A stretch of 64,000 nucleotides of DNA from Pectobacterium peruviense (GTDB taxonomy: Bacteria; Pseudomonadota; Gammaproteobacteria; Enterobacterales; Enterobacteriaceae): positions 124,001 through 188,000 of the forward strand of contig NZ_LXFV01000006.1 in the NCBI RefSeq assembly GCF_002847345.1, read 5' to 3'. Shown here piece by piece: positions 1,114 to 19,109 of the stretch. The number at the start of each line of letters is the position of its first letter. Within the stretch, counting starts at the first letter, position 1. The notes under the pieces are model-generated. The model did not search any database, was not told where the DNA came from, and saw only the letters and a list, made by a program, of their open reading frames with translations. The position numbers and the translations under genes were made by a program.

Positions 1114-1123
1114 TTTGCATGAG

Positions 1124-4100
1124 CTATAGATTACCGCATAAGAGAGGGGTCATTGGCTGTACGATATCCATGAGAATTTGATGGTACTGATGGGACAACA
1201 CAGCGATATCTTCCGCTTTAAACGCTGCTTGCTGATAATTAAAACACAGCGTCAGTGCATCATCGTCATAAACAGAGAGCGTTAAATCCAACCGGGCCTG
1301 ACGACTCGCAATATCCGCAATCTGATACTCAGCCTCATTAATCTGCACAACCTGCGGCATTGCCGTCAGATAGTTAAAGCTGACAGGGAAACGCAGCTTA
1401 TCAGCCCATCCTTTGGCTCGGACGTCAGTCATTAATACATCGTAGGGCAACGTCTGATTGTCCAAAATGGCATGGATCTTATTCTGGTTACGCGCTAAAA
1501 GCGTTCTGAAAGATTCCTGAGCTGGCGAATCATCGTAGTAAGTCACCATGTTAACGAAACAGCCTACCGTAGTGGTGTTCTCTGTCAGCATGCGATTTGA
1601 CACGGGAATACCGATAGGAACATGTCGATAGTCTGTTGTTTTGAGCAGCAGCGTAAAGGCCGTCAGCATACAGACAAACGGCGTCGTGCGATGCTGCTGG
1701 GCATAGTGTTTTATCGCCTGCGTTAGCGTATCGGACAAAATGCACCAATAATTTTCCCCGTTCTGGCTTTCACGTAGCGGAAATGCCGTCGCATCGGCTC
1801 CCGCAGTCAGGTAATCCTCCATCTTATCCAGCCAGAACTGGCGCTCTACCGGATAGCATTTATCTTTGATACGCAACTGCTGTTGCCGATAATGCAGATA
1901 ACGTTCCTCACCGCCTATCTTGTAGCTGCGGTCACCCGCGCTATAAGCCCGGATATATTCAACAAATTGATTGAAAAATAATCCAATCGCATCATGGTCG
2001 AATACCGTATGGTGCACACGCACCAGCAGAATATGCCGTTGAGTCGTCAGCGAGACCAGATGAAAACAGATGAGCGGCGAATGTTCTACATCCATCTCTG
2101 GCGTATTGACCAGCTCCAGCAGTTGTCGGTCACCCAGCGTATTGGCCAACCCACCAGGAGGGAGAGCCGTCAGTCGTTCAATCGGAATCGCCTCGATCGG
2201 ATAATCCCCTTCAAGGCATTGCATCCTGTCCAGATCAAAGCGGGTTCGCAGCACCGGGTTACCTTCCAAAATACGCCGGAGACTCCATTCCACGGCAGAC
2301 TCATCCAGCGTGCCCTCTACCGTCAGACGAAAAGCTAATTGATAGACCGATGGCTCTGGGCTGAGCTGATCCAGCGTTAGAAAATAGCGCTGCTGCGATG
2401 ATGGCGCGAGTGCCTCGATATCCGTTTCACTCTCATCAAACGCGGGCTCATCATCGTTAACATAGTAAGGAACGATGAAAGCAAGTAAATGGGGCGTCGC
2501 GTTGTTGAAAAATAGTGGGTAATCAATTTCGCTAAACAGCCGTTTGCGAATCAGTAGCCTGGCTTTCATCGCCTGAAGTGAATCGCCCCCTAAATCAAAA
2601 AAGTTGTCGTTGGCACCGAGTTCACGAAAGCCAAGCACCTCCTGCCAAATATCAATCAGTTCCTGTTCCAGCTCATTACCTGCGGTTTTAAAAGGGTATC
2701 CTAGCTCAGGGCGCTGCGGACAAGGCGCCGGGAGCCGGCTCACATCCAGTTTTCCATTAGGCAGTTTAGGTAAGGTTTCCAGCATAATAAAATGGGACGG
2801 ATGCATCGCTCTCGGCAGCTTGTCTTGCAAGAATCGGCGCAGGTCGTTCGTCGCAAGCGATGGATTACGACTCACCAGATAGGCCACCAAACGCTGACGC
2901 CCATTTTCCTGAATCGGCCGCACCAGCGCCTTATCGATATCCGCATGCTGACGTAAAACGATTTCGACCTCTTCAGGTTCGATACGAATACCATTAATCT
3001 TAATCTGCCGATCGATACGTCCCAGATATAGGATCTCCCCATCCGGCGTCCTTTTCCCTAGGTCGCCGGTGCGATGTCCCCAATAGCTTTTATCACCGCT
3101 GACATGGGTAAAGAAACGCTGTTGAGTGAGTTCATCGCGGTTAATGTAGCCGCGGGCAACGCCTTCACCGATAGCGCAAATCTCCCCCTCTTCCCCTTCA
3201 GATACGGGGAGCAGACTCTCATCCACGATCAGAATTTCGCTGCCACGCAGTGCCTTACCGAGCGTCACACTTTTCCCCAGTTTTAATTCAGCAAACGAGC
3301 AGTTGGCCGTCGTTTCCGTCGGGCCATACAGATTAAAGAGCCTAACATCAGGGATTTGCTGGAACGTGCGCTCTTTCAAATCAAAAGAGACGGGTTCGCC
3401 AGAGAGAAAGACCGTTTTAGGTAAAGCCCATGCGTGAGAAGAAGATTTCTGATAGCGCAGCAGTTCATCCCAAACGGTCGGTACGCAGTAAATAGCCCCG
3501 TCCGGATGCTGTTGATGCCAGCGTAATAAAACTTCCGGCTCATTCAAGCTATCGGCAGGCAAAATAAAGAGAGTGTCGCCGCGTAATAAAGGCGCATAGA
3601 GCTGTGTCACGGCGGCGGCAAAGCTGAGTGTCGATGTCAAAGGGAGCGTCGCACGGGTCTCTGGCCACACATCCTCATTAAACCAGTTCAGATAATAGCT
3701 CAGGTTCCGGTGTTCAATAGCCACCCCTTTTGGCTTCCCTGTAGAACCAGAGGTATAGAGAATATAAGCGAGATCGTTTTCGCAAACGGGTGGTAACACC
3801 GCCACAGGTTCATCGGGATAATGAATATCCTCTAGTGCAAGCGTGGAGGGAGAAACCTTATCGATAGCTGTTTTATTTACCATCGTTCGCGTCGAGATAA
3901 GTAAAAACGCCGAAGAATCATCAAGGATCTGAATTATTCTTTCTGACGGATGAAAATGAGAGAGAGGAACGTAGGTGTGTCCAGCCTTTAAAATAGCCAG
4001 TAAGACCACGGGCATCATGACGCCAGGTTCCAGATAGACGGCAATTCTGCCACGTTTATTATCCGGATAGTGTGATAACAAATAATCGGCCAACAGGCGC

Positions 4101-4222
4101 GAGTGTGCTTCTAACTGTTGATAACTCAACCTATCGCCATTAAATTCCACCGCAGTCTTATTGGGATTTTTCAATGACCATTCAGAGATAATTTCAAAGA
4201 CGGCTTTTCTACTTTTCATCAT
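1124..4222 (-). CDS. Non-ribosomal peptide synthetase, A-PCP-C
   Basis: This 1032-residue synthetase has an adenylation domain (about 1-500), a carrier domain (about 515-580) and a condensation domain (about 605-1030). Visible motifs are the A3 loop YTSGSTGKPKG (156-166), LYGPTET (298-304), HRTGDLG (383-389), GRIDRQIKING (401-411) and catalytic K491. The carrier motif GGDSL has Ser548 for phosphopantetheine, and the condensation motif is HHTVFDH (737-743), with H738 and D742 kept and the usual G changed to H. The pocket position normally held by Asp235 (GrsA numbering) is Ala202, so the substrate may lack an alpha-amine. There is no TE. The gene faces away from the rest of the cluster across a 315-bp gap. 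AAGGA precedes a double ATG. A-PCP-C order suits a starter module whose C domain works on a separate acceptor PCP. Confidence 0.93.
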   Translation of the reverse strand: MMKSRKAVFEIISEWSLKNPNKTAVEFNGDRLSYQQLEAHSRLLADYLLSHYPDNKRGRIAVYLEPGVMMPVVLLAILKAGHTYVPLSHFHPSERIIQILDDSSAFLLISTRTMVNKTAIDKVSPSTLALEDIHYPDEPVAVLPPVCENDLAYILYTSGSTGKPKGVAIEHRNLSYYLNWFNEDVWPETRATLPLTSTLSFAAAVTQLYAPLLRGDTLFILPADSLNEPEVLLRWHQQHPDGAIYCVPTVWDELLRYQKSSSHAWALPKTVFLSGEPVSFDLKERTFQQIPDVRLFNLYGPTETTANCSFAELKLGKSVTLGKALRGSEILIVDESLLPVSEGEEGEICAIGEGVARGYINRDELTQQRFFTHVSGDKSYWGHRTGDLGKRTPDGEILYLGRIDRQIKINGIRIEPEEVEIVLRQHADIDKALVRPIQENGRQRLVAYLVSRNPSLATNDLRRFLQDKLPRAMHPSHFIMLETLPKLPNGKLDVSRLPAPCPQRPELGYPFKTAGNELEQELIDIWQEVLGFRELGANDNFFDLGGDSLQAMKARLLIRKRLFSEIDYPLFFNNATPHLLAFIVPYYVNDDEPAFDESETDIEALAPSSQQRYFLTLDQLSPEPSVYQLAFRLTVEGTLDESAVEWSLRRILEGNPVLRTRFDLDRMQCLEGDYPIEAIPIERLTALPPGGLANTLGDRQLLELVNTPEMDVEHSPLICFHLVSLTTQRHILLVRVHHTVFDHDAIGLFFNQFVEYIRAYSAGDRSYKIGGEERYLHYRQQQLRIKDKCYPVERQFWLDKMEDYLTAGADATAFPLRESQNGENYWCILSDTLTQAIKHYAQQHRTTPFVCMLTAFTLLLKTTDYRHVPIGIPVSNRMLTENTTTVGCFVNMVTYYDDSPAQESFRTLLARNQNKIHAILDNQTLPYDVLMTDVRAKGWADKLRFPVSFNYLTAMPQVVQINEAEYQIADIASRQARLDLTLSVYDDDALTLCFNYQQAAFKAEDIAVLSHQYHQILMDIVQPMTPLLCGNL

Positions 4223-4537
4223 TTTCCTTCCATATTGTAAAAGGATGCTTTTTTTTGCGGGAATGGATCTAACGCGAATTCCGGTATCTCATGCGGTGAT
4301 AATTAATATTGTACAAATCGATGGGTTCGCTATACCAATACCAGGAAAGGCTCGCGGAATAACACGTATGCCTGAGTATGGGTTTAACAAATAAAAGACA
4401 TGATTGCCTATATACCAAAAGGACTACGCCAGAATTCGACAGGTTCCCCGTACCCTGACGGGTATTATTTCCCCTTCCCTTTGCTATTTTTTATTGACAG
4501 TGCATCACACCCTATTTGCAGATAATTGGAGGCTCCG
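4223..4537. promoter_or_regulatory. Divergent promoter region of the NRPS/PKS cluster
   Basis: This 315-bp AT-rich gap separates the minus-strand NRPS from the plus-strand genes and must hold promoters for both. A perfect -35-like TTGACA lies at 4494-4499, but the best -10-like word (GATAAT, 4521-4526) is 21 bp away, so I cannot call the promoter. The ribosome site TTGGAGG ends 5 bp before the ATG at 4538. I see no convincing operator palindrome and no regulator gene in the cluster. Confidence 0.4.
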
Positions 4538-5167
4538 ATGGATTCACAATTTATCGGTTCTGTTATTAATGCGTTACCGCTGGAAAATATGATTAGCGGG
4601 CCATTACAGGCAATGATTAACGCACAGGTTCAAGCCAGCAAGGCCTACACGGATTTTCTATTATCCGTATGCATTCAGAATAATAAAGCCGTCGCCATCC
4701 AATTCGATTACGACGAGACACTGATTGATGAAAGTGGCGTAGCAAAAGGCGCGGTGACGAAAACGATGCGCATACCGCTGATTGCCGCGATTACCCATCC
4801 GATCATTTCTATTGAAGAAGGGACAATCGATTTCGAGCTTGAAGTGACACAGAGTGAATCTTCATCCGATGACACAGGAGAAGACGGCAATCTGGCGGCT
4901 TCACTGGGATGGGGGGCTTTCAAGGTCAAAATGGCCGGTCGGGTATCACACAAATCAGCGCAGACCCGGACTACGGACACGCGCGCCAAATACAGCATTC
5001 ACACACAGGTAAAACGCCAGCCTGCGCCTGAAGCGCTCATGCGTGTCATCGATTTCCTGACCGATGCTGCAACCAGGCCAAGCACTCCCACAGAAAAAAG
5101 TACGCCACAAACAGCGGAAAACGCCGCGCCACCAGCGTCTACGGAGCAGCAAGAAGCATCGTCATAA
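4538..5167 (+). CDS. DUF2589-like protein
   Basis: This 209-residue soluble protein resembles, in its N-terminal third, the DUF2589 family as I remember it: a short hydrophobic start, ISGPLQAMINAQ, then a helix with AYTDF. The middle is beta-rich (residues about 55-100), with a Ser/Asp/Glu-rich loop near 110-120. The last 45 residues are rich in T, P, A, E and Q and look disordered. No catalytic motif is visible. I chose the start by GGAGG spaced 5 bp from the ATG. It is the first gene of the plus-strand arm, about 100 bp before the adenylation gene. Its role in the pathway is unknown, and the family assignment is from memory and moderate. Confidence 0.7.
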   Translation: MDSQFIGSVINALPLENMISGPLQAMINAQVQASKAYTDFLLSVCIQNNKAVAIQFDYDETLIDESGVAKGAVTKTMRIPLIAAITHPIISIEEGTIDFELEVTQSESSSDDTGEDGNLAASLGWGAFKVKMAGRVSHKSAQTRTTDTRAKYSIHTQVKRQPAPEALMRVIDFLTDAATRPSTPTEKSTPQTAENAAPPASTEQQEASS

Positions 5168-5264
5168 TCAAAACACATTACTCAGCGGCATAGTGCATGC
5201 CGTACCTGCATAACGCGTAAAAGGATGCCTGGCGTGACCCCTGGCATCACCAGAGGATCAGATC

Positions 5265-6776
5265 ATGGCATCGGCAAGAGTGCTCCATACCTTATTTGAA
5301 CAGCAGCGGCATCAGACGCCGGACGCCATCGCCCTGAGAAGCGATACAGAAACGTTGACCTACCGGCAATTAGATCAGCGTGCAAACGCGCTGGCGAGCG
5401 ATCTGTTGCAGCGGGGCGTAAAGCCAGAGGATGTTGTCGGTATCTATTTAAATAAAAGCCCGAATCTGATCGTCAGTCTGCTCGGCGTATTGAAAACCGG
5501 TGCATGTTATTTACCGCTTGATCCGTACTACCCGCATGAGCGTCTGGATTATATGGTCAATCATGCCGATGCGCATTTGGTCATTACTGACGATGAACAC
5601 GCGCTGACGCTGACGCCAGACCGTTGTGAGATTGTTGATATCAACCAGATAGATCTGACCTCTCAGCTAACGCCAACACTTCCCACGGTCAGCGAAGAAC
5701 ACCTTTGCTATGTGATGTACACCTCCGGCTCAACCGGAACGCCAAAGGGCGTCATGGTCAGCCATCGAACGGTAGTCAATTATTTGGCGTGGATGCAAAA
5801 CGCTTTCGACCTGCATCACAAAGACGCCGTCCTTAACCAGTCTACGTTCAGTTTTGACGTGTCAGTGTGGGAAATTTTCTGGCCACTGATCGCTGGCGCA
5901 AGCTGTGCAGTCATCACCGAGGACGCAAAGTACGATCCACTGCTGCTGGCAGAATTTATGTGCCGTCATCAGGTCACCGTCGCACAGTTTGTGCCAACGG
6001 CGCTGCGTGTCATTGCTGATGCGGAGGTGCTATCTCGCTGCACCTCGCTATGCCATATCTTTTCCGGTGGTGAAGCGCTCGATCAAAGCCTAGTCAACGA
6101 TCTTTCCCAGCAATATCTGGGAAAAATCCACAACCTCTACGGCCCGACCGAAGCAACAATATTTGCTTGCCATTGGCACTGCCAACCGGGGGCAGAGGAA
6201 AAAATCGCCCCAATTGGCAAGCCAATCCCTCATGCCGCCGCTTATGTATTAGATGAAGCGCAACAGCCTGTCGAATTGGGGGAAAGCGGCGAGCTTTATC
6301 TGGCAGGGGATATTCTGGCAAAAGGTTATCTGCATGCGGAAAAGCTGACACAGGAGCGATTTGTGGATGACCCATTCAGCCACCAGGCTGGACAAAAAAT
6401 GTATAAAACGGGTGACTGGGTTAAGCAGCGTGCCGACGGCGTACTGGAGTTCATTGGCCGAATAGACAGTCAGGTTAAATTGCGCGGGCACCGTATTGAG
6501 CTGGCAGAAATAGAAACTCACCTACAGGCGTTACCACAAATTAACCATGCCGCCGTTATTCTCGAAAGGCGTCTGGAAAGCGCTGCGCCATCACTCTCGG
6601 CGTTTTATGTATTACGACATCAAAAGAGCATCGATATCCAGGAGATAAAAGCGCACCTTGCCAAAATGTTGCCTTTTTTCATGGTGCCCTCTCATTTCGT
6701 TGCGTTGGAAAAAATGCCAACACATCCCAATGGAAAAATTGATAAATCTAAACTGTGTTCCTGCGTAAATAACTAA
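5265..6776 (+). CDS. Stand-alone amino-acid adenylation domain
   Basis: This 503-residue A domain has no fused carrier. Motifs include YTSGSTGTPKG, FDVSVWE with the amine-binding Asp198, LYGPTEA (291-297), KTGDWV, GRIDSQVKLRGHRIE and a C-terminal NGKIDKSKL lysine. It activates an amino acid as the AMP-ester and should load it onto the free PCP encoded 10 bp downstream. My alignment by eye of the pocket gives D198 V199 W202 Q241 F266 G268 L291 I299 F300 plus Lys, nearest to a glutamine-type code I recall (DAWQFGLIDK), but this prediction is weak. AGAGGA precedes the ATG. The gene is co-oriented with the PCP, PKS and terminal NRPS genes. Confidence 0.93.
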   Translation: MASARVLHTLFEQQRHQTPDAIALRSDTETLTYRQLDQRANALASDLLQRGVKPEDVVGIYLNKSPNLIVSLLGVLKTGACYLPLDPYYPHERLDYMVNHADAHLVITDDEHALTLTPDRCEIVDINQIDLTSQLTPTLPTVSEEHLCYVMYTSGSTGTPKGVMVSHRTVVNYLAWMQNAFDLHHKDAVLNQSTFSFDVSVWEIFWPLIAGASCAVITEDAKYDPLLLAEFMCRHQVTVAQFVPTALRVIADAEVLSRCTSLCHIFSGGEALDQSLVNDLSQQYLGKIHNLYGPTEATIFACHWHCQPGAEEKIAPIGKPIPHAAAYVLDEAQQPVELGESGELYLAGDILAKGYLHAEKLTQERFVDDPFSHQAGQKMYKTGDWVKQRADGVLEFIGRIDSQVKLRGHRIELAEIETHLQALPQINHAAVILERRLESAAPSLSAFYVLRHQKSIDIQEIKAHLAKMLPFFMVPSHFVALEKMPTHPNGKIDKSKLCSCVNN

Positions 6777-6786
6777 TGGTGAAAAA

Positions 6787-7059
6787 ATGTCAAATGACAA
6801 AGCAATATTACCTTCAGAAATAGAAAAAAATATTATTTCTATCTGGCGGACTGTACTTAACAATCCAAAGGTTTCCATTCAAGAAAACTTCTTCGATGCG
6901 GGAGGGAATTCCCTGCTGATGTCCAAAGTTTATCGAGAAATAAAAAATAAAATAGAGTCACCCATCTCTATTGTTGATTTATTCCAATACCCAACGGTAC
7001 AGATGCTAAGCAAGCGTATTAGCGAAATACACGCTGGGAAATCAAGCAACAAGAAGTAA
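6787..7059 (+). CDS. Stand-alone peptidyl carrier protein
   Basis: This 90-residue carrier protein has the phosphopantetheine motif FFDAGGNSLL with Ser42, a preceding helix (EKNIISIWRTVL) and a typical helix III (DLFQYPTVQML). It starts 10 bp after the adenylation gene, with GGTGAAAAA before the ATG. It should be loaded by that enzyme and act as acceptor for the A-PCP-C protein and as donor for the PKS ketosynthase. No phosphopantetheinyl transferase is encoded in the window, so a host enzyme elsewhere must activate it. The C-terminus is very lysine-rich and may be a docking tail. Confidence 0.93.
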   Translation: MSNDKAILPSEIEKNIISIWRTVLNNPKVSIQENFFDAGGNSLLMSKVYREIKNKIESPISIVDLFQYPTVQMLSKRISEIHAGKSSNKK

Positions 7060-7080
7060 TTACGCCAAAAAGCGGATTTA

Positions 7081-7204
7081 TACTCTAAATAACTCGAGTT
7101 TCAGGCAGGCGGCAAGCGAAGGAATCCCGATGAACTTACTCAAGTAAGTAATTCGGGTGACTGAACGCTGCCAACACACATGCAACTTGAAGTATGACGC
7201 GTAT
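7081..7204. repeat. ERIC element inside the biosynthetic cluster
   Basis: This 124-bp imperfect palindrome begins TACTCTAAATAACTCGAGTT and ends AACTTGAAGTATGACGCGTA. It shares both ends with the copy at 33514-33708. The centre (AACTTACTCAAGTAAGTAAT between ATCCCG and TTCGGGTGA) is an ERIC/IRU core. It sits in the transcribed gap between the PCP gene and the small basic-protein gene, where it could form an RNA hairpin that affects downstream mRNA. Confidence 0.88.
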
Positions 7205-7283
7205 ATCAGCCGGGGGAATAACCGCCCAGCAATGGGCAATGTGTTTCATCATTCTTATTTCACTGATAATAGGTGGTAATACC

Positions 7284-7556: not shown

Positions 7557-7586
7557 TTCACTTTTAATTTAGCTGTCCCTTCTATA

Positions 7587-7695: not shown

Positions 7696-10600
7696 ATGAA
7701 ACAGCAAGAACAGTTCCGCGATAAGGATATTGCCATTGTAGGAATGTCAGCCCGCTTTCCCGGTGCAGAAGATACCGCAATATTTTGGCAAAACCTGTTG
7801 GACGGCGTGGAGACAATCAGCACATTCAGTGAAGAAGAACTGAGGGAGTCAGGTATTGAAGAAGAGATGATCGCCTCACCCAACTATGTTCGCCGTCGGG
7901 GAATTCTGGGTAACGCACAACACTTTGATGCTAATTTCTTTGATATTACGCCTCGTGATGCCGAAATTATGGATCCACAGCATCGTGTCTTTCTGGAATG
8001 CTGCTGGCACGCGTTTGAAGATGCGGGCTATGTGCCCACCACCTACCCCGGCAAAGTTGGCATATTTGGCGGAACGGGAACCGCCTGGCATTTAAGTAAA
8101 GTGAATGCCCATCCTGAAGTACAGAAATACGCCAGCGGCGCATCGGTCGTCACCAACAACGATAAAGATTACGTAACGACCCGGGTGTCTTACAAACTCA
8201 ACCTCAAAGGGCCGAGTGTTAACGTACAGACAGCCTGCTCAACCGCGATGGTCGCCGTCGTGATGGGCATGAACAGCCTGCTGAACGGGGAAAGCGATCT
8301 GATCGTCGCTGGCGGTGTTTCCGTGGATACGCCAGAACGCCGGGGTTACCCCTATATGCAAGGCGGCATGGAATCCGCAGATGGCCGCTGCTATGCCTTT
8401 GACTCACGTGCCAATGGCACGGTGTTCAGCCGTGGTGCAGGCGTGGTATTACTGAAACGCCTGAATGACGCCGTACGCGACGGCGATCATATTTACGCCG
8501 TGCTGAAAGGCGGCGCGGTAAATAACGACGGTAACCTGAAAGCAGGCTTTACCGCACCGAGCATCCACGGGCAAATCGCCGTTGCCAAGCAGGCAATCGC
8601 GAATGCGCAGCTTGATCCCGCAACAATCAATTTTGTTGAAGCTCACGGTACCGCGACAGCGCTGGGCGATCCCATCGAATTCACCTCGCTCACACAAACG
8701 TTTCAGGAATACACGGATAAAACCCAGTATTGCCGCCTGGGCTCGGTAAAAACCAATATCGGCCATACGGACGCGGCATCGGGCATGGCTAGCCTCATCA
8801 AAGCGTCACTGGCGCTGGAAACGGGCAAGCTACCCGCCTCGCTCCATTTCGAATCGCCAAACCCTAACATTGAGTTTGAAACCAGCCCGTTTGTCATGAA
8901 TACCGAACTTAGTGAGCTGGAACCGTCGGAAACACCGCATCGTGCGCTGGTGAACTCTTTCGGCGTTGGCGGTACCAATGCCTGCGTCATTTTGGAAGCC
9001 GCACCGCCGTTAGACGCGGGTGATGCCCATGACGATAGTCTGCTGGTTTTACCTTTCTCCGCGAAAAGCCGTACGGCACTGGACGATATGAAACGCCGCC
9101 TGCGCGATTACCTCAGTGCGCATGACGACGCCAATCTGGCGGATATCGCCTACACCCTACAGGTCGGAAGACAAAGGTTCTCACACAGCACGGCCATTAT
9201 TGGAAAGGATCGCGATTCGCTGCTGGCCAAATTGGATCAGCCTTCACTGGTGGTGACACGACAGGGGAAAAATCAAAAATCCGTTGTGTTTATGTTCCCA
9301 GGACAAGGCAATCAATATATCAATATGGCGCGCGAGCTATACGCCACATACGACGTCTTCCGCAAGAACATGGATCAATGCTGTGACTATCTGGAACCGA
9401 TTCTGGACGTCAACCTGAAGTCGATTATCTTCCAAGACACCGACGATACCGCCGCTTCCCGCATCAATGAAACCCAATTTACCCAGCCGTCTTTGTTCGT
9501 GGTGGAGTACTGTCTGGCAAAACTGTGGATGTCGTGGGGCATTCAGCCGGATGCCATGATTGGCCACAGCGTGGGTGAATACGTGGCAGCCTGCCTGTCC
9601 GGCGTGTTCTCACTGGAAGATGCGCTGAAAGCCGTGGCGCTGCGCGGCAAGATGGTACAGGCATTACCGGCAGGAGATATGCTGGCCGTCCTGCTCGATG
9701 AAGAAAGCCTGAAGGAAAAACTTCACGGCACCAAGCTGGAAATTGCAGCAGTTAACTACCCAGGACTATGCGTCATCGCTGGTGCTTCAAGTGATATCGC
9801 ACGTTTCCAACAGCAGTTAGAAGACGGGAATATCTTCTGCAAACATCTGGATACCTCGCATGCTTTCCACTCGCACATGATGGAACCCATGCTGCCCGCC
9901 TTCAAAAAAGTCATTGATAGCATCACGCTGCATGCGCCGCAGATCCCGTTTGTTTCTACCGTTAACGGGCAATGGGTCACTGAAGAACTGGCGAAGAACA
10001 GCGACTACTGGGTGCGTCACGTACGTAATCCAGTGATGTTTTCTCATGCTTTCAAAACGTTGATGGCTGAAGAGCATCAGGATTTCGTGTTTCTCGAAGT
10101 CGGGCCGGGACGTTCACTGGAATCATCCGCCAAGCAGCATTTCAGCGCAGAAGACGGTGCTTTGATTTACGCCTCACTGCCAACGGCCAAAGACGTTGCT
10201 TTGTCCGGCGAGCATATCCTCTCGACGCTGGGCGCACTGTGGGCAAGCGGCGTTGACGTTCCGTGGCATCAGCATCATTCAGAACAACACCGCCGTCGCA
10301 TCCCGCTGCCGGGCTATCCTTTCGAGCGCAAACGCTTCGCCCTGCCTGCTCTGTCGTCAGCGAGCCATGATGCGCAGAGTGAACAATCCGTTAAAGCTAA
10401 AAAGCGCAAACAGGCCGATATCGGTGACTGGTTCTATATGCCGACCTGGAAGAAAACTATTCCGGCAAAATACATGGCGGGCAAACACGCTGAAGCTGAG
10501 AGCACCTGCTGGCTGCTCCTGACCGATACGCTGGGCATCGCCGAACACGCGAAGCAACTGCTGGAAAATGACGGGCATAAGGTCTTCGTTATCAGCCCGG

Positions 10601-13200
10601 GAGCTGCGTATCAAGAAACGCTTTCCGAAGGGCGATATACCCTCAATCCGTCCGCGCGAGCCGATCATGTCCGGCTACTGAAAAGCCTGACGGAACAAGG
10701 GCTGCGACCGTCTCATATTCTGTATTTATGGAATCTTACGGCGGAAGAACAGGCACAGCCGCTTGAGCATAGCTATCTCTCCTCACCGTTGAATACGTTC
10801 TACCCTGCCCTCTATCTCCAACAGGCGCTGGTGAACGAGAATTTGCTGGACGATCTGCATGTGATCTTTGCCACCAGCAACACATTCAGCGTCATGGGCG
10901 AGCGCGTCACTTCACCAGAAAATGCGCTGCTCGTTGGGCCTTCGCGTGTGTTCTATCACGAATATCCCGAAGTACAGTGCCATCTGGTAGATGTCGATCT
11001 AAAACAGAATGCCGCTCAGCCAGATGAACTTGCCCAGTGGCTGATTGCAGAAAGCCATATTGCAACACATGGCAATCTGGTGGCCTACCGCGGAAATCAA
11101 CGCTGGGAAGAAAGTTACCAGGCCGTGCATCTGAAGCAGGACACTATTGGCTTACCGGCTGAACTGAAAAACGACGGCGTCTATCTCATCACTGGCGGTC
11201 TCGGTGGCCTGGGAATACTGGTCGCCAATCACCTGTCCGAACAAAGCAATGCAACGATCATCCTGACGTACCGTACCGAGCTGCCGCCTCGTGAGGAATG
11301 GCAAACCTGGCTCCAGCAGCACCCTGTCGATGATGCTATCAGTGAAAAGCTGGCGAGCATTTTACGTCTGGAAGCGCGTGGCAACCACGTGCATCTGGCA
11401 CAGGTAGACGTGAGTAACTATCGCGGTATGCGTGACGTGCTATCCGCCTTCCCACAGATCGATGGCGTGTTCCATACCGCAGGTGTGCCCGGTGGGGGCA
11501 TCATTCCGCTGAAAAGCGATGCCGATTGCGCCAGCGTGCTTGATCCTAAGGTCGCAGGTTCGCTCATTCTGGATGAACTTCTGCAAGACAAGCAGCCTGA
11601 CTTCTTTGTTCTGTTCTCCTCCATTACCGCCATTGTGGGTGATGAAGCCCGCATCGATTACTGCTCAGGCAATGCCTTTATGGACGCCTTTGCCCATTAT
11701 CGCAACCAGCGTCGCCGTGGACGCACCGTCTCGCTGAACTGGGGACAATGGGGTGATGTGGGGATGGCAGCTCGCTGGAGCAAGCAGTTGCAAGAGAAGA
11801 AACACAGCAAGCTACCCGCAGTTGAAGAAACCAAAGGTGACCTGCTTACCCTCGTCGAACGCGAAGGTATGCAGGAAAGCTATCAGGTCAATCTCGCTGT
11901 GCAGCAGGACTGGGTTATTGATGAACACCGCCTTGCAGGTCAAGCATCGCTGGTTGGCGCGACGATCTTATCGCTGCTGCATGAGTTCATTACGCACGTT
12001 AAGCCACAGGAAAGCCTTCAGGTCAAAAATCTGATGCTGACCAAGCCTATTATTTACACCGATGACTGGCCACGACAGATGAGACTGTTCATCACGCCAG
12101 AGGGGAAAAATTATAAGTTCAGCCTTAAGAGCCAAGGCGTGCTTGAGCTGGTATGGCAAGAACACGCATTCGGGGGCATTGGCCACAGCGCTCAGGCGGC
12201 TGACATCACGCCACTGTCGATTGATGCGATCAGACAGCGCTGCACCACGCAGATTGCCTACTCGCCGTTTATCACCGAGCTGGGAAATGCCAACACGGGC
12301 GAGAGTTTCCTGTCGTTCAGCCAGCGCTGGAACAACCACCGCGAGATCGTTCAGGGCCATAACGAATGGCTGATACATAAAGAGCTGGGGAGCGAATATG
12401 AGCACGATCTTACTCGCTACCCGTACCATCCTGCACTTATTGATGCAACAGCCATATCTTGCATAGCCTTGATTACCCAGGAGAACTTCCTGCCAATCAG
12501 CTATGGGAAAATGGCCTTCCTATCTCCGCTGGAGAAAGAGTGTTACGCCCACGTCAAGCTCAAGCAAGCCTATCAACCGCAGGATAGTGCCATCGTCATG
12601 GATATCACGTTCCTTTCAGCGACAGGCGTTCGGCTGCTGACGCTGGAAAATTACACGCTGATGAAGATGACGCTGGGCAATCAGGTCGGCACGCAGGAAA
12701 GCGCCTCAGTGGCGATTCCAGCTGCCGTGAAAGTGAATCTGGCAGATAAAGACATTCTGTTATCAGAAGGTCTGGATGCGATAAAACGCCAGCTCGCACA
12801 CCTGGAATTTGACCAATTAGTGGTCGTTACCAGCGATCTGGAACAACTCATTTATGAGTCTATTCCTGAGCAGGAAACGCCTGAACTCACCCTGCAAGAC
12901 AGCGAAGCAACGGAAGGCTACGCCAGACCGGCACTCTCTGTGGATTACATTGCGCCAGAAAATGACATTGAGAAAGAGATCGTCAAAGTTTGGCAATCCA
13001 TTCTGGGGATTTCGGGTATCGGCGTTAACGACAGCTTTACTGAACTCGGCGGGAATTCACTGCTGGCAGTACAGGTTGTCTCCACCGTTTCCGGCATATT
13101 TGAAATCGATATTCGCGTTGATCTGTTTTATCAGAACCAGACAGTGAAAGGGCTATCGACGCTGATCCTCACTGAGCTGGAAGCCTTATTGCAGGAATAA
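7696..13200 (+). CDS. Type I polyketide synthase, KS-AT-KR-DH-ACP
   Basis: This is an 1834-residue single-module synthase. The ketosynthase (about 10-435) has Cys181 in TACSTA, His317 in EAHGTAT and His357 in NIGHTD. The acyltransferase (about 525-850) has Ser625 in GHSVGE and the motif HAFH at 722-725, which points to malonyl-CoA. A structural KR half (about 910-1140) precedes the catalytic ketoreductase, with TGGLGGLG at 1166-1173 and Tyr1322 in YCSGN. A hot-dog region follows with His1411 (HRLAGQASLV, last Pro of the usual motif changed to Val) and Asp1583 in HPALIDAT, read as a dehydratase. The ACP near the end has Ser1788 in GGNSL. KR before DH is the reverse of the common order. There is no ER or methyltransferase. 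GAGGTAATGAA precedes the ATG. It should extend the aminoacyl chain on the free PCP by one C2 unit. Confidence 0.93.
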   Translation: MKQQEQFRDKDIAIVGMSARFPGAEDTAIFWQNLLDGVETISTFSEEELRESGIEEEMIASPNYVRRRGILGNAQHFDANFFDITPRDAEIMDPQHRVFLECCWHAFEDAGYVPTTYPGKVGIFGGTGTAWHLSKVNAHPEVQKYASGASVVTNNDKDYVTTRVSYKLNLKGPSVNVQTACSTAMVAVVMGMNSLLNGESDLIVAGGVSVDTPERRGYPYMQGGMESADGRCYAFDSRANGTVFSRGAGVVLLKRLNDAVRDGDHIYAVLKGGAVNNDGNLKAGFTAPSIHGQIAVAKQAIANAQLDPATINFVEAHGTATALGDPIEFTSLTQTFQEYTDKTQYCRLGSVKTNIGHTDAASGMASLIKASLALETGKLPASLHFESPNPNIEFETSPFVMNTELSELEPSETPHRALVNSFGVGGTNACVILEAAPPLDAGDAHDDSLLVLPFSAKSRTALDDMKRRLRDYLSAHDDANLADIAYTLQVGRQRFSHSTAIIGKDRDSLLAKLDQPSLVVTRQGKNQKSVVFMFPGQGNQYINMARELYATYDVFRKNMDQCCDYLEPILDVNLKSIIFQDTDDTAASRINETQFTQPSLFVVEYCLAKLWMSWGIQPDAMIGHSVGEYVAACLSGVFSLEDALKAVALRGKMVQALPAGDMLAVLLDEESLKEKLHGTKLEIAAVNYPGLCVIAGASSDIARFQQQLEDGNIFCKHLDTSHAFHSHMMEPMLPAFKKVIDSITLHAPQIPFVSTVNGQWVTEELAKNSDYWVRHVRNPVMFSHAFKTLMAEEHQDFVFLEVGPGRSLESSAKQHFSAEDGALIYASLPTAKDVALSGEHILSTLGALWASGVDVPWHQHHSEQHRRRIPLPGYPFERKRFALPALSSASHDAQSEQSVKAKKRKQADIGDWFYMPTWKKTIPAKYMAGKHAEAESTCWLLLTDTLGIAEHAKQLLENDGHKVFVISPGAAYQETLSEGRYTLNPSARADHVRLLKSLTEQGLRPSHILYLWNLTAEEQAQPLEHSYLSSPLNTFYPALYLQQALVNENLLDDLHVIFATSNTFSVMGERVTSPENALLVGPSRVFYHEYPEVQCHLVDVDLKQNAAQPDELAQWLIAESHIATHGNLVAYRGNQRWEESYQAVHLKQDTIGLPAELKNDGVYLITGGLGGLGILVANHLSEQSNATIILTYRTELPPREEWQTWLQQHPVDDAISEKLASILRLEARGNHVHLAQVDVSNYRGMRDVLSAFPQIDGVFHTAGVPGGGIIPLKSDADCASVLDPKVAGSLILDELLQDKQPDFFVLFSSITAIVGDEARIDYCSGNAFMDAFAHYRNQRRRGRTVSLNWGQWGDVGMAARWSKQLQEKKHSKLPAVEETKGDLLTLVEREGMQESYQVNLAVQQDWVIDEHRLAGQASLVGATILSLLHEFITHVKPQESLQVKNLMLTKPIIYTDDWPRQMRLFITPEGKNYKFSLKSQGVLELVWQEHAFGGIGHSAQAADITPLSIDAIRQRCTTQIAYSPFITELGNANTGESFLSFSQRWNNHREIVQGHNEWLIHKELGSEYEHDLTRYPYHPALIDATAISCIALITQENFLPISYGKMAFLSPLEKECYAHVKLKQAYQPQDSAIVMDITFLSATGVRLLTLENYTLMKMTLGNQVGTQESASVAIPAAVKVNLADKDILLSEGLDAIKRQLAHLEFDQLVVVTSDLEQLIYESIPEQETPELTLQDSEATEGYARPALSVDYIAPENDIEKEIVKVWQSILGISGIGVNDSFTELGGNSLLAVQVVSTVSGIFEIDIRVDLFYQNQTVKGLSTLILTELEALLQE

Positions 13201-13207
13201 GGGAACG

Positions 13208-13237
13208 GCCGCCTTCAGCATAAGCGCCGAAGGCGGC
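13208..13237. other. Intercistronic hairpin between the PKS and NRPS genes
   Basis: A 9-bp stem (GCCGCCTTC with GAAGGCGGC) lies 7 bp after the PKS stop and 41 bp before the next start. With no T-run it is more likely an mRNA stabiliser than a terminator, in keeping with one operon. Confidence 0.5.
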
Positions 13238-13278
13238 TGCTAACGTGAAAACCGAATGCCATAAAATGAGACTCGATA

Positions 13279-16200
13279 ATGACGCATCTTCCCACTGGAA
13301 AACTCACCTCACTCAGCTTGGATGAGATTAAAAAGCTGGCAAGAGAAAAGAAAAAAACAGGTGCCGCGCTATCAGGCAAAACCATTACTCCGCATGCCGC
13401 GCCCGGCAAAACGCATTTCCCCATGACCAGTACGCAGAAGAGTATCTGGATGCTCGCCCAATACCTTGACGATAGCCAGGTCTATAATAATCCCTATGTT
13501 CTTGCATGCAGGATTGAACACGACATGGAGCCGGCGCGAGTACAACAAACGCTCAACTATCTAATGCAACAACATGAAATTCTGCGTACAACCTTCCGTC
13601 TGGTCGATAACGACGTGTGCCAATGCATTGCTGACGATATGTCTTTCACAACTTTTAGCTTTGACGACATCTCAGCATTCAACGAGGAAGACATTGAAAA
13701 ATATGTCTCGGATACGGCCAAGGCAAAAGGAAAAATTGTTTTTGATCTGGAAAATGGCCCATTGGTTTATCTCCATATGGTCAAAACCCATCGGTATGAA
13801 TATGTCCTGTTCCTGACATTTCATCACATCATTTCCGACGGGTGGACGGTCAATGTGTTTTTCAAGATGCTCATGGAAAACTACTTTCGTCTGTTGCAAG
13901 GGGGGACATTACCCATCGAAAAAACGCTCCAGTTCGCCGATTACGCGCTGGCGGAAAATCGATGGTATGCCGAAGGGGAATACCAGACCGGGCTTGCCTA
14001 CTGGACGAAAAAACTGGATGGCATCACAGGGCAATTAGATCTGGCAATGGACTACCCTCGCCCTGCGAAAATGAGCACGGCTGGGAAAATAGCCAGCCAG
14101 TTCTTTGATGCGTCCTTCTGCCAGCGTTTACAAACCTGTGCAGCGCAGCATCAGGCAACGCAATTCCACGTTATCCTCACGGCTTACCAACTCCTACTGC
14201 ATAAATACAGCGGACAGCAGGAAATTATCATCGGGGCGCCGTTTGCCAACCGGAATCTGCCCGTCACGCAAAACATGATGGGGCTATTCATGAATACCCT
14301 GCCATTACGTTTTGATATCGATCCTGATGCCAGTATCGCCTCCCTGATTGAGGGCGCACGCACCGAATGCGAAGAAACCATGAGGCATCAGGATGTGCCG
14401 TTCAATTATATTCTGGACGAGATTACCTATGTGCGTAATCCCCAGATCAACCCGATCTTCCAGGCTATATTGACCTATCAGGTCTTTCCTCATTTTCACA
14501 GCAGCCATGGCGGATTCAAATATAAGCCGTTAAAAGTGGATTACGGCACTGCCAAGCTGGATCTGAATTTATGGGTAGAGGAAGACAAAGATAGCGACGG
14601 CCTGCTATTCACGATGAACTACAGCAGCGCGCTATTTTCCAGCGCTACCATCCAGCGCATGCTGAACGATCTGCGAACCCTTCTTGAAACCTTAATCACC
14701 CAACCGCAGTTAACCGTGCGGGATATCTCACTGTTAGGCGACGAAGAACGCAGCGCAACAATCGCGCAATGCCACTCGACAGTGAACACGCCCCCGCCTG
14801 CGGTTCATTCGCAGTTTGAACAACAGGCACAACAAAAGCCGGATGCCATCGCGGTTCGCTGTGAAGGGCGCACGCTTACCTATGCTCAGCTCAATGAACG
14901 GGCCAACCAGCTAGCTCATCAGCTACAGAAAGACGGGGTCTCTCATGGTGAGTGCGTCGCGATCTTTATGCCTAAAAGCGAATATTACGTCGTCGCGATT
15001 CTGGCTGTGTTAAAAGCTGGCGGATGCTATGTTCCAGTCGATATGGACCTCCCCACTCAGCAGATTGAGTTCATACTGCAAAACGCCGCCGCCCGCTGTG
15101 TCATCATCGACGAAAAAGTGCCCGGTGAAATGCTCCCCTGCCTCTACGTAAAACAAAACCGCAGCATGATGCCAGACAGTAACCCACAGGCGGTTATCGA
15201 TGGCCCTGCTTACATCATTTATACCTCGGGCAGCACAGGGAAACCAAAGGGTGTACGGGTCAAACATTCGCAGTTAAGCCACTATTGCCAAGCCATTCAG
15301 CCGGTACTCAACCTGCCGCCAGATGCTCGCTACGGCATGTTTTCATCCTTCACAACCGATTTGGCACACACGGTGTTATTTCCCGCGCTGATCCATCAAG
15401 GTCAGTTGGACGTGATCACGACTGAATTACTCCGTTCCCCACAGGAACTATTCGCCTATCTGGCGCACTATCCGGTGGATTGCATAAAAATTACGCCATC
15501 GCATTTAGCGACGTTATTGACTTCATCGCAAGCCGAAGCGTTATTGCCGCATAGCCTGTTGATTATCGGCGGAGAACGCGTCCCTCTGTCCCTCATCACG
15601 CGCGTACGTGAGTTCCGATCGCCTTGTCGCATCCTCAATCATTATGGCCCAACCGAGTGCACCGTCGGCGTCACTACCTACCCAGTACCAGACGACCTCA
15701 GTGCCTTTTCGGGTGACTATTTACCCATCGGTAAACCCTTATCCGATAGCCATGTGCTGCTGCTCGATCCTTATCAGAAGTTGGTTCCAAACGGATTGCC
15801 GGGAGAAATTTATCTGGGTGGTTCACATGTCGCGGAAGGATACATCGGCCTGCCGGAGCAGAATGACGCACGTTTTATTCCTCATCCTTACCTTGAGGGC
15901 GAACGGCTTTATCGCAGCGGTGACAAAGGCCGCTTCCTGCCTGATGGCAACCTTGAGTTTATGGGACGCTTGGATCGCCAGGTTAAAGTACGTGGCTACC
16001 GTGTCGAACTGGCGGAGATCGAGCAGGCATTACAGCAGGTCGCTAATGCGACTCACGTTGCCATTAAACAAAATACGCTGCCACACGGGGATGCAGTCCT
16101 AACCGCGTATCTGTGCGGCATTACTGAACCCAATCAGGCCGCAGTAAAAATAGCACTGCACAACAAGCTGCCGGACTATATGCATCCCGAACGTTGGGTG

Positions 16201-17349
16201 TGGCTAGATGCGATGCCATTAACGGCCAGCGGCAAGATAAATTATGCCGCGTTACCGATACCTTCGATGGAAAAAAATGTCTCGTTCCATGCCCCGGAAA
16301 ATCAGCACGAGCACGATCTACATGAGATTTATCGCGATATTTTACAAAACGATACCGTTGATACGCAGGAGAGCTTCTTCACGCTTGGCGGGAATTCTCT
16401 CAGCGCGTTAAAACTCATCCTCAGCGTTAATCAGCATTTTGGGACATCCTTGTCTTTGGGACAGCTGTTTGAAAACAGCAGCATTTCCCAGTTGGCCCGC
16501 GTTATTGGAGAAAAAGGATCCCAGACTCAAACAGCAAGGGTGACGATCAATGTTGGGCAGCCTGAAGATAAATCTACTTTGCTTCTGATCCACCCTGCGG
16601 GCGGTAACGTGCTGTGTTATTCCGCGTTGGCGCGTGAATTGGGCGGGAGCTATCCAATCTACGGCATTCAAGTACCCGATTTCAGCGTTAACCAACCTTA
16701 TAACGCCGATATCAAAACGCTTGCCGCTTTCTATCTTTCACAGGCTGGCGACGTTATTCATCACTCCCGTCTGGTGCTCGGAGGATGGTCTCTCGGCGCA
16801 ACTATCGCGTTTGAAATGGCGCAACAGCTCGCGGAAAAAGGCATAAAACCCACCGTATTAGTGCTGGACCAGCCTGCGCCAGAGATCAACATCGACGGAT
16901 CCGCAGATATGAACGAGGCCGAGCGTCTGTCGTACTTTGCGCAGAAAGTCGCCTTATTTACTGGCGCATCTTTCGATCTTTCAGAGCAGTCACTTTCAGA
17001 CATAAGCAACGAGCAGCGAACAGCGCGTTTTCTGGCTGAATTTAAACGCGTGGGATTAGTTCCTGAGTCGATTGGGCTGGCGGAATTTCAGGACTTTATC
17101 AACATCCTGCAAGCCCATATCTACGCGACAGAAGCTTATCGTGGTCAACCCTATCCGGGAGATGTACTGGTCGTCGAGGCGGAAGATATCTTACCGGGTC
17201 GTACCCGCCTGCCAGAGTCAGGGCTAGGGTGGCGTCGTCTCACGGCAGGATGCCTGACGGTACTGCCGGCTTCCGGCGATCATATCTCGATGATGAATGC
17301 ACCGCATATTTCCCGCATAGCCGAACAGCTAAAGAACGTATTGCGATAA
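13279..17349 (+). CDS. Non-ribosomal peptide synthetase, C-A-PCP-TE
   Basis: This 1356-residue terminal module has a Lys-rich N-terminal stretch (about 1-45, possible docking), a condensation domain with HHIISDG (182-188), an adenylation domain with YTSGSTGKPKG (648-658) and Lys986, a carrier domain with Ser1040 in GGNSL, and a thioesterase with Ser1171 in GGWSLG and His1335 in SGDHIS. The pocket residues read by eye are D694 L695 T698 K737 I762 G764 H788 V796 G797 K986, i.e. DLTKIGHVGK, which matches the aspartate signature I know (DLTKVGHIGK type). It should condense the PKS-bound chain with Asp and release the product as acid or ring. The gene follows the PKS gene by 78 bp. Confidence 0.94.
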   Translation: MTHLPTGKLTSLSLDEIKKLAREKKKTGAALSGKTITPHAAPGKTHFPMTSTQKSIWMLAQYLDDSQVYNNPYVLACRIEHDMEPARVQQTLNYLMQQHEILRTTFRLVDNDVCQCIADDMSFTTFSFDDISAFNEEDIEKYVSDTAKAKGKIVFDLENGPLVYLHMVKTHRYEYVLFLTFHHIISDGWTVNVFFKMLMENYFRLLQGGTLPIEKTLQFADYALAENRWYAEGEYQTGLAYWTKKLDGITGQLDLAMDYPRPAKMSTAGKIASQFFDASFCQRLQTCAAQHQATQFHVILTAYQLLLHKYSGQQEIIIGAPFANRNLPVTQNMMGLFMNTLPLRFDIDPDASIASLIEGARTECEETMRHQDVPFNYILDEITYVRNPQINPIFQAILTYQVFPHFHSSHGGFKYKPLKVDYGTAKLDLNLWVEEDKDSDGLLFTMNYSSALFSSATIQRMLNDLRTLLETLITQPQLTVRDISLLGDEERSATIAQCHSTVNTPPPAVHSQFEQQAQQKPDAIAVRCEGRTLTYAQLNERANQLAHQLQKDGVSHGECVAIFMPKSEYYVVAILAVLKAGGCYVPVDMDLPTQQIEFILQNAAARCVIIDEKVPGEMLPCLYVKQNRSMMPDSNPQAVIDGPAYIIYTSGSTGKPKGVRVKHSQLSHYCQAIQPVLNLPPDARYGMFSSFTTDLAHTVLFPALIHQGQLDVITTELLRSPQELFAYLAHYPVDCIKITPSHLATLLTSSQAEALLPHSLLIIGGERVPLSLITRVREFRSPCRILNHYGPTECTVGVTTYPVPDDLSAFSGDYLPIGKPLSDSHVLLLDPYQKLVPNGLPGEIYLGGSHVAEGYIGLPEQNDARFIPHPYLEGERLYRSGDKGRFLPDGNLEFMGRLDRQVKVRGYRVELAEIEQALQQVANATHVAIKQNTLPHGDAVLTAYLCGITEPNQAAVKIALHNKLPDYMHPERWVWLDAMPLTASGKINYAALPIPSMEKNVSFHAPENQHEHDLHEIYRDILQNDTVDTQESFFTLGGNSLSALKLILSVNQHFGTSLSLGQLFENSSISQLARVIGEKGSQTQTARVTINVGQPEDKSTLLLIHPAGGNVLCYSALARELGGSYPIYGIQVPDFSVNQPYNADIKTLAAFYLSQAGDVIHHSRLVLGGWSLGATIAFEMAQQLAEKGIKPTVLVLDQPAPEINIDGSADMNEAERLSYFAQKVALFTGASFDLSEQSLSDISNEQRTARFLAEFKRVGLVPESIGLAEFQDFINILQAHIYATEAYRGQPYPGDVLVVEAEDILPGRTRLPESGLGWRRLTAGCLTVLPASGDHISMMNAPHISRIAEQLKNVLR

Positions 17350-17354
17350 CACGT

Positions 17355-17393
17355 CCGCCGTCTACGCCTTCAAGGGTAGAACGGCGGTTTTAT
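17355..17393 (+). terminator. Terminator or attenuator after the terminal NRPS gene
   Basis: CCGCCGT pairs with ACGGCGG, with further partial pairing inside, and is followed by TTTTATT. It lies 5 bp past the NRPS stop. Since two co-oriented genes follow closely, it may only reduce read-through. Confidence 0.65.
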
Positions 17394-17413
17394 TACGTAA
17401 GCGAGGAGAAAAA

Positions 17414-18040
17414 ATGAGCCATCCCCCGTCATTAACCGTTTGGCGATATCTGGTATCACGCGATGCCCTTCTGACCATAATCATACCGGTCGTTATTTAC
17501 AACATCGCATTTTGGCAGGGGGGTGCTGGCGTTGCTCTGTTAATTACAGCCATCTATTCTGGTGCGCTGCAATATTTCAGCCGTTGGGAAGGGACTCTGC
17601 CAATCATCGCCCTCATCCTGGTCTCAGGGCTTAGCCACTATCTCTATTTGGAAGGGGTCATGCTGTTTGATATCAGGCAGGAGAGCGTCTTTTTATCGGT
17701 CAGCGGCGCAATTTCTACCGTCATTATCTTTAGCGCTTACAGCATCAAGGGACGTCCCGTGATACGGACATTGGCGGAACAGGCCACACCAAAACTCAAG
17801 ACGCTGCCCGTCTATGGCTCGCCGCTGTACGTCAAAGTCTGGAACGAGGTAGCTCTCGTCTGGATTCTGGTTTATCTGGTGAAAGCCATCATCATCTACA
17901 CCCTCTCCCGCCAGCCAGAATTACCGATGGATACGCTTGTCCTCATTAGCGGATGGCCGCTTACGTTACTGCTGGTGATCTTCAGTTTCAAATGGCCAAC
18001 GTATCGCTGGTCTTCACATACACACGATAACGCTGCCTGA
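17414..18040 (+). CDS. Multi-pass membrane protein, function unknown
   Basis: This 208-residue integral membrane protein has about six hydrophobic segments (roughly residues 19-37, 38-52, 60-77, 90-108, 145-165 and 175-195). The layout recalls VC0807-type or septation-A-like small membrane proteins, but I cannot assign it. A strong GAGGAG ribosome site precedes the ATG. Its position directly after the thioesterase-ending synthetase suggests self-protection or a transport aid for the product. No transporter signature (ABC, MFS, MATE) is visible. Confidence 0.75.
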   Translation: MSHPPSLTVWRYLVSRDALLTIIIPVVIYNIAFWQGGAGVALLITAIYSGALQYFSRWEGTLPIIALILVSGLSHYLYLEGVMLFDIRQESVFLSVSGAISTVIIFSAYSIKGRPVIRTLAEQATPKLKTLPVYGSPLYVKVWNEVALVWILVYLVKAIIIYTLSRQPELPMDTLVLISGWPLTLLLVIFSFKWPTYRWSSHTHDNAA

Positions 18041-18092
18041 ATTGGTCATCCAGCCATGCATAACATAATGAACGATGAATATAGGGAATATT

Positions 18093-19109
18093 ATGAGTCC
18101 GTTAGAAAACAAATTGGTTGTGCTGAATCGCCATCCTGATGGCCCTGCACAGCTAGACAATTTCAGATTGGAAGAACGTGATATCAATGAGCTACAGCCC
18201 GGTGAGTATCTGGTTGAAAATAAATGGCTGTCTATTGATTTGTACATGCGCCCTCGCCTCAATAAAAGCACGGCCTACGTCAGTTCAATCAAAGAGGGAG
18301 AGGTCATTCAGGGCGAAACGATAGGCTATGTCGTCGCCACGAAAAACCCCAAATTTCGGGTTGGGGATTGCGTGTTCACCTTTTCAGGTTGGCAGAAATA
18401 CTATGTCGGCACGCCTCAGGATTTCATTACCCACCGAGTGCCACCAACGACCTTTTCACCGTCTATTTTTCTTGGCGCAGTAGGAACACCTGGGCGCTCC
18501 GCCTATTTTGGCATGAACAAAATTGCTAAACCTAAAGCAGGAGAAACACTGGTGGTATCCGCTGCGTCGGGAGGCGTGGGATCCGCTGTCGGTCAGTTAG
18601 GTAAACAGGCTGGATGCCGAGTTGTCGGTCTGGCAGGCAGCGAAGAGAAGTGTCGTTATGTCGTTGAGACATTAGGCTTTGATGCCTGCATTAATTATAA
18701 AGAAGATGACTTAAATCACGCCTTGCAGGCCGCTTGTCCCAATGGAATTGATATCTATTTTGAAAACGTTGGCGGTCGGGTTTCGCTATTTGTCGCTAAA
18801 TTACTGAACGAAGGCGCTCGCGTTCCCGTCTGTGGCAGTGCAGCACAATACAATCAAGATCCTAACGTTGACGCCTCCAGTCCGGTAGCATTTTTCTCTT
18901 CTCTGCCTAATGCCCCGCTGAGCCGCTTTTTTATCGTGACCGAATGGTTCAAAGACTATGCGGAAGCCGATATTTGGCTACTGGATGCCGTTGAGAAAGG
19001 ACGATTGAAATATCGGGAGAATATTATTGAGGGAATAGAGAATGCGCCTCAGGCCTTTATCGACTTATTAGATAGCAAACACTTTGGCAAGCAACTGGTA
19101 CGCCTGTAA
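18093..19109 (+). CDS. CurA-type NADPH-dependent double-bond reductase
   Basis: This 338-residue member of the zinc-free medium-chain reductase family is similar along its length to E. coli CurA (curcumin/dihydrocurcumin reductase). It has the Rossmann motif VSAASGGVGSAVGQLGK, then GCRVVGLAGS for NADPH, the IDIYFENVGG stretch and a final FGKQLVRL. There are no zinc-binding cysteines. The family reduces alpha,beta-unsaturated ketones and related alkenes. I chose the ATG at 18093 for AGGGA spaced 6 bp. Lying 52 bp after the membrane-protein gene, it may belong to the biosynthetic cluster and reduce the enoyl group the PKS module leaves, or it may be an unrelated detoxifying enzyme. Confidence 0.88.
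   Translation: MSPLENKLVVLNRHPDGPAQLDNFRLEERDINELQPGEYLVENKWLSIDLYMRPRLNKSTAYVSSIKEGEVIQGETIGYVVATKNPKFRVGDCVFTFSGWQKYYVGTPQDFITHRVPPTTFSPSIFLGAVGTPGRSAYFGMNKIAKPKAGETLVVSAASGGVGSAVGQLGKQAGCRVVGLAGSEEKCRYVVETLGFDACINYKEDDLNHALQAACPNGIDIYFENVGGRVSLFVAKLLNEGARVPVCGSAAQYNQDPNVDASSPVAFFSSLPNAPLSRFFIVTEWFKDYAEADIWLLDAVEKGRLKYRENIIEGIENAPQAFIDLLDSKHFGKQLVRL

Follow-up and report, generated by a model that had tools for sequence, protein, structure and literature searches.

A conserved hybrid NRPS-PKS cluster of dissociated layout, with a proposed trans-acting CurA-type reductase, in Pectobacterium peruviense and other bacteria

Introduction

The best described comparator of the cluster analysed here is the barnesin A line of Sulfurospirillum barnesii (brnE/brnF), in which, according to the accessible text, a nonribosomal peptide synthetase (NRPS) passes its chain to one polyketide synthase (PKS) module with ketosynthase (KS), ketoreductase (KR) and dehydratase (DH) domains, and a thioesterase (TE) releases an acyl peptide (PMC13096860). 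That line uses a trans-acting acyltransferase (AT), a starter condensation (C) domain for a fatty acid, and Tyr and Arg, and it ends at the PKS with the double bond kept (PMC13096860). Our subject is a hybrid NRPS-PKS cluster of Pectobacterium peruviense, found in a 64,000-nucleotide stretch of contig NZ_LXFV01000006.1 (positions 124,001 to 188,000; hereafter the window). Set beside barnesin, as far as the description of the latter goes, it has a cis-acting AT, a starter adenylation (A) domain, a second A domain and a peptidyl carrier protein encoded as free proteins (A2 and PCP2), a further module for Asp that follows the PKS, and a reductase that is conserved with the line. We read it as a dissociated hybrid line in which enoyl reduction would be carried out in trans by a CurA-type enzyme, and give this reading a probability of about 0.58.

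Other known systems resemble it in part. The syrbactins (syringolin, syl; glidobactin, glb) are likewise assembled as amino acid, malonyl unit and amino acid, by a single PKS module that carries both KR and DH and is followed by C-A-PCP-TE. In the present line KR precedes DH, A and PCP proteins are dissociated, an extra reductase is present and there is no evidence of a macrolactam; moreover, the terminal module is not of the Lys type of the syrbactins, A3 being of the Asp type in 21/21 loci. The syrbactin likeness proposed in a sequence-only reading of the window thus stands for the module type and fails at the last adenylation code. LovC-type trans enoyl reductases share with the enzyme described below the plan of a stand-alone medium-chain dehydrogenase/reductase (MDR) whose proposed substrate is an enoyl chain on a carrier, whereas our gammaproteobacterial enzyme belongs to the CurA/prostaglandin-reductase branch and its Flavobacterium counterpart is like PKS enoyl reductase (ER) domains. 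Finally, thalassospiramides contain a homologated serine unit, in the accessible text of PMC13096860, and the Flavobacterium relative with a Ser-type A2 code is likened to them by description, not by sequence.

Results

By Pfam, the assembly-line domains A-PCP-C, A, PCP, KS-AT-KR-DH-acyl carrier protein (ACP) and C-A-PCP-TE fill positions 1124-17349 of the window (Table 1). The A, PCP, C, KS, AT, ACP and TE domains all carry their catalytic residues, and the KR residues are intact as well. The sequence-only reading had claimed a complete line with every catalytic residue in place; Pfam, residues and recurrence (19/23 loci, see below) confirm the line, and the claim about residues holds throughout except in the DH, whose motifs are partly lost with His and Asp kept. 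Judged from its sequence, the assembly line is complete and under selection.

From a scan of GTDB genomes 79 loci were retained, 22 of which were examined together with one from Vibrio sp. THAF64. These 23 loci come from Pectobacterium, Brenneria, a Serratia metagenome-assembled genome (MAG), Vibrio, Marinomonas, Shewanella and Xenorhabdus. A seven-gene core, made up of the genes for the starter protein (APC), A, PCP, PKS and C-A-PCP-TE plus a membrane protein gene (mem208) and the reductase gene (curA), is complete in 19 of the 23, so that mem208 and the curA-type reductase count as cluster genes beside those of the line itself. Four loci fall short: L050 and L053 end at contig ends, L051 is without curA, and L070 has broken frames. 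The L070 record (Pectobacterium sp. PL152) has many of them, glmM included, and is likely to contain assembly errors. One of the 19, from the Serratia liquefaciens MAG, has a stop at codon 50 of A2 (L038 8002-9504) in an otherwise complete cluster, where true damage and MAG error cannot be told apart. The order KS-AT-KR-DH-ACP is itself common to cyanobacterial and other PKSs (Pfam-checked in Planktothrix L033 and Ruegeria L032), relatives of this type being 35-48% identical over the best segment; 61 such loci were searched and gave no mem208 match at E 1e-5 and weak curA matches. On the Planktothrix plasmid (L033 14010-21542) KS-AT-KR-DH-ACP is followed by thioesterase and then sulfotransferase domains, and an NRPS gene adjoins.

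Gene fusions bear on the order of the modules. A2 and PCP2 lie in one open frame in 5 of the 22 loci holding both (two Xenorhabdus, three Shewanella), and A1-PCP1-C-A2-PCP2 is a single protein in two Bacteroidota, Saprospiraceae L056 and Flavobacterium L089, where the PKS comes next, then a reductase and then C-A-PCP-TE. These fusions support, at the level of sequence, that the modules work in the proposed order.

Adenylation codes were taken at ten positions, fixed by GrsA numbering. The A1 code is AATYFSLANK in 15/20 loci, the remaining five differ from it at one or two positions, and Asp235 is absent from A1 in all 20. A domains without Asp235 take substrates without an alpha-amino group, and the starter is accordingly expected to be of that kind. 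For A2 the code is D[VI]WQFGLIFK in 19/20 loci and DVWQFGLIYK in X. beddingii; DVWQFGLIFK, the code for residue 2, is tentatively Gln/Ser-like. A3 reads DLTK[VI]GH[VI]GK in 21/21 loci, which is an Asp code. The Bacteroidota pair have AATYYSLANK as A1 and DLTKIGHIGK as A3, with A2 codes of DVWHFSLIDK in Flavobacterium (a Ser code) and DVWHFTFIAK in the Saprospiraceae MAG, and the second cluster copy of genome G592 has DVWQAGFIYK. As the A1 and A3 codes are steady while that of A2 differs across loci, the end units appear constant and residue 2 variable; the starter protein drifts to 33% identity while the adenylation codes hardly change. Much of what had been proposed from the window alone is thereby borne out: four building blocks and their order (domains; fusions in Xenorhabdus, Shewanella and Bacteroidota), a starter acid, here one that has no alpha-amino group (Asp235 is missing from A1), and Asp as the last unit (A3 code).

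In the proposed pathway A1 would activate a carboxylic acid that lacks an alpha-amino group, loading it on PCP1, the free A2 would load an amino acid on the free PCP2, and the C domain would join the starter to the PCP2-bound residue. The KS would accept this acyl-aminoacyl chain and extend it by one unit, probably malonyl, the AT motif HAFH being of the malonyl type. The KR would then reduce and the DH dehydrate, a trans-acting CurA-type reductase would saturate the new double bond, the last module would add Asp, and the TE would release the product by hydrolysis or cyclisation. The expected core would be starter acid - residue 2 - CH2-CH2-CO (a gamma-amino acid) - Asp.

The reductase had been left out of the pathway chemistry in the sequence-only reading. 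In NCBIfam the window protein is nearest the CurA reductases, scoring 350.8 bits where the family cut-off is 440. Copies within clusters are 54-92% identical to it and second copies elsewhere in the searched genomes 35-46%, the second copy in its own genome being 44% identical. In the curA tree the cluster copies form one clade (support 100/100) apart from seven second copies, and the main groups are those of the PKS tree; by these trees, curA is co-inherited with the PKS. It is present in 21 of the 22 loci whose sequence reaches its place, counting the broken L070 copy. Both Bacteroidota have a different MDR gene between the PKS and the last module; the Flavobacterium protein best matches PKS enoyl-reductase domains (MAS 5.4e-52, CurK 1.2e-49), and both proteins start with an LSPE stretch that resembles stretches found at the ends of NRPS and PKS proteins. 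Since CurA-type and PKS-ER-type reductases are both tied to the same pathway, the presence of two distant C=C reductase branches would be most simply explained by enoyl reduction on the line, which we propose to be reduction of the carrier-bound enoyl chain by CurA. The same pattern suggests that most producers remove the double bond.

Several observations weigh against this reading, and they are considered here with the alternatives that they favour. The best solved relative of the window CurA is a CurA of Vibrio type (5zxn), an enzyme that acts on a free substrate, whereas the reaction proposed here would be on a carrier-bound chain. The X. bovienii locus is without curA, its HlyD match beginning about 75 bases after the mem208 match, and no curA match was found anywhere in the genome, though the line is kept. 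This species bears directly on the possibility that the double bond survives to give a vinylogous amino acid, a Michael acceptor, with CurA acting elsewhere, for example on the starter or the free product, or in protecting the producer. Such a course would also suit the PKS protein, in which Pfam finds KR and DH domains and no ER domain, and the DH, which retains its catalytic His and Asp in 21/21 loci; products of this type are known from NRPS-PKS lines (PMC13096860, accessible text). It is, however, at odds with the two reductase branches tied to the pathway, one of them of PKS-ER type, and with the near-constant presence of curA, and we consider it unlikely. The internal vinylogous unit that had been predicted for the window is accordingly not secured, given a dedicated reductase that follows the PKS phylogeny and a divergent DH, of which the reductase is the stronger argument against a surviving warhead. 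For Pectobacterium we put the Michael-acceptor claim at about one in four; such a group is most plausible in the reductase-less X. bovienii.

The DH itself is a second difficulty, its motifs being without Pro, mostly without Gly, and without Q/H. In the wider KR-DH family Q/H is absent from every row with a readable motif, so that its loss alone is no proof of inactivity, and Pro is kept in many rows; taken with the motif losses, this means that reduction might stop at the alcohol. A DH-like domain that does not dehydrate normally could leave a beta-hydroxy (statine-like) unit, or a ring might be closed by hetero-Michael addition, and dehydratase-cyclase and pyran synthase structures are indeed among the matches of the predicted DH structure (Z 25.8, 25.7 and 24.4). 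Yet the fold is the correct one, the top matches are ordinary dehydratases (best Z 28.9), the His and Asp are invariant, and a conserved C=C reductase would need an alkene substrate, which makes an atypical DH very improbable.

Three further points count against dehydration and trans enoyl reduction within a complete, functioning line. The codes of A1 and A2 point to no single starter or residue 2; damaged copies exist, namely the A2 stop in the Serratia MAG and a split PKS in Pectobacterium genome G020; and export genes are not uniform. An exporter of the major facilitator superfamily (MFS) is present in 16/16 gammaproteobacterial loci outside Pectobacterium/Brenneria and a HlyD-type adaptor in 15/16, the exception being a locus that ends short of the adaptor's place, whereas the pair was found in 0/4 Pectobacterium/Brenneria stretches searched (the window, L035, L037 and L053).

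Within the genus, PKS matches of 89-91% occur in named Pectobacterium records. Of 25 genomes, the source genome counted, 11 have a full-length, open PKS; it is in two pieces in G020 and broken in G021, and 12 have no close match. Remnants at the cluster site, consisting of pieces of C-A-PCP-TE, mem208 and curA in G002 and of the curA 3' end in G001, G012, G015 and G016, show that the cluster was lost in these five of the 12. In Brenneria alni and B. salicis it likewise adjoins secG, and it is therefore old in the Pectobacterium/Brenneria group. Elsewhere, Marinomonas groups with Vibrio in the PKS tree (support 100/100), counter to accepted species relations, which suggests transfer of the cluster between orders. 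APC is 58-61% identical to the window copy in X. bovienii and the Serratia MAG and 33-48% in Vibrio, Marinomonas, Shewanella and X. beddingii. Genome G592, of the same order, has the cluster doubled as two divergent copies (L164 + L169; L165 + L170).

The mem208 protein is predicted to be helical (mean pLDDT 82.7), and comparison of the predicted model gave no good match to any solved fold. Strong matches occur only within clusters or a remnant (369 and 394 genomes sampled), and a role in export or immunity is our guess. As to activation of the carriers, PF01648 is matched twice in the source genome, by frames of 171 and 258 amino acids that are both open, and the 258-residue protein is a candidate phosphopantetheinyl transferase.

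The cluster lies on contig 6 of the 4.78 Mb genome as nine genes between a lysozyme gene and tRNA-Leu(GAG)-secG. No exact repeat of the tRNA 3' end was found in window 1-19169. Two of the nine genes are restricted in distribution: orf120 to Pectobacterium and Brenneria copies, and the DUF2589 gene to Pectobacterium and Brenneria alni copies. The latter is still at the site in G007 and G008, two Pectobacterium genomes without the synthetases; it seems tied to the site rather than the cluster, and its protein is for this reason probably not biosynthetic. At window 47-986 a phage-type lysozyme gene is overlapped by a small membrane-protein frame; both are at the same site in G007 and G008, and the lysozyme is also there in G002. 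Farther along the contig, beyond the window (G000:C6:230209-241187), lie more PKS genes, whose open frames run to 2757 and 2133 amino acids, and similar frames are present in G002, G007 and G023.

Table 1. Features of the cluster and its boundary, in window coordinates.
Feature	Position	Strand	Basis
APC, starter module A1-PCP1-C; A1 code AATYFSLANK, Asp235 absent; C motif HHTVFDH	1124..4222	-	Pfam, code and motif reading
DUF2589 protein	4535..5167	+	Pfam
Free adenylation domain A2, code DVWQFGLIFK	5265..6776	+	Pfam, code reading
Free carrier PCP2, motif GGNS	6787..7059	+	Pfam, motif
orf120, hypothetical small protein of 120 aa	7194..7556	+	Pfam, presence across loci
PKS module KS-AT-(psiKR)KR-DH-ACP; AT motif HAFH; KR precedes DH	7696..13200	+	Pfam, residues, DH structure model
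C-A3-PCP3-TE; A3 code DLTKIGHVGK; TE triad Ser-Asp-His	13279..17349	+	Pfam, codes, residues
mem208, membrane protein predicted to be helical, outside the named families	17414..18040	+	Pfam, presence across loci, structure prediction
curA-like NADPH double-bond reductase, MDR superfamily	18075..19109	+	NCBIfam, structure matches, own clade
tRNA-Leu(GAG), cluster boundary ahead of secG	19170..19256	-	position

Discussion

The cluster is a conserved hybrid whose dissociated layout is unusual, and no matching product was found in the full-text literature searched, MIBiG being outside the search; to that extent the earlier statement that no named Pectobacterium product with this layout is known holds, and no described cluster was shown to be this one. 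Several reports come close, each cited for its accessible text. For 12 surveyed Pectobacterium species, cfa and a syringomycin-like NRPS are named (PMC6963963), and P. aroidearum and P. colocasium are said to have conserved arrays of NRPS and PKS genes, products not being named (PMC11231085). Two NRPS-T1PKS clusters were predicted in V. coralliilyticus S2052, no product being given (PMC5209532); a marine survey lists andrimid among V. coralliilyticus clusters (PMC4359443), and two PKS-NRP hybrid families of V. europaeus are unexplained (PMC13249269). In Xenorhabdus and Photorhabdus 61% of hybrid clusters are unidentified (PMC9177418).

Could the product already be known, from MIBiG or from a subscription paper? 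The search did not extend to the former or to most of the latter, the carriers include the well-studied Xenorhabdus and V. coralliilyticus, and for P. betavasculorum the cluster labels from antiSMASH include bicornutin A, rhizomide and xenoamicin A (PMC10991766, accessible text), which are neither tied to the locus nor excluded. We nevertheless consider this improbable: the literature searched named no such product, and the only NRPS,T1PKS cluster of X. bovienii MEL2.2, in a 2025 analysis with antiSMASH 7 and MIBiG, is called unknown in the accessible text (PMC12377575), though it may or may not be the present cluster.

More tentatively, and with the odds somewhat against it, the loci may share one pseudopeptide scaffold, with starter and Asp constant and residue 2 variable, in several gammaproteobacterial families and in Bacteroidota. 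CurA-type and PKS-ER-type enzymes would then have been captured independently as trans enoyl reductases, and X. bovienii, having dropped the reductase, would make the Michael-acceptor version.

If the proposed pathway is true, a CurA-type enzyme would have been taken into an assembly line to serve as its trans enoyl reductase, and a reactive warhead is less to be expected in Pectobacterium. The metabolite is a tractable one: the cluster takes up about 18 kb with a core of seven genes, residue 2 has natural variants (the Flavobacterium Ser type and DVWQAGFIYK), and there is a natural reductase-minus variant. Because the specificity codes are near-invariant in plant, insect and marine bacteria, they imply one product type under lasting selection.

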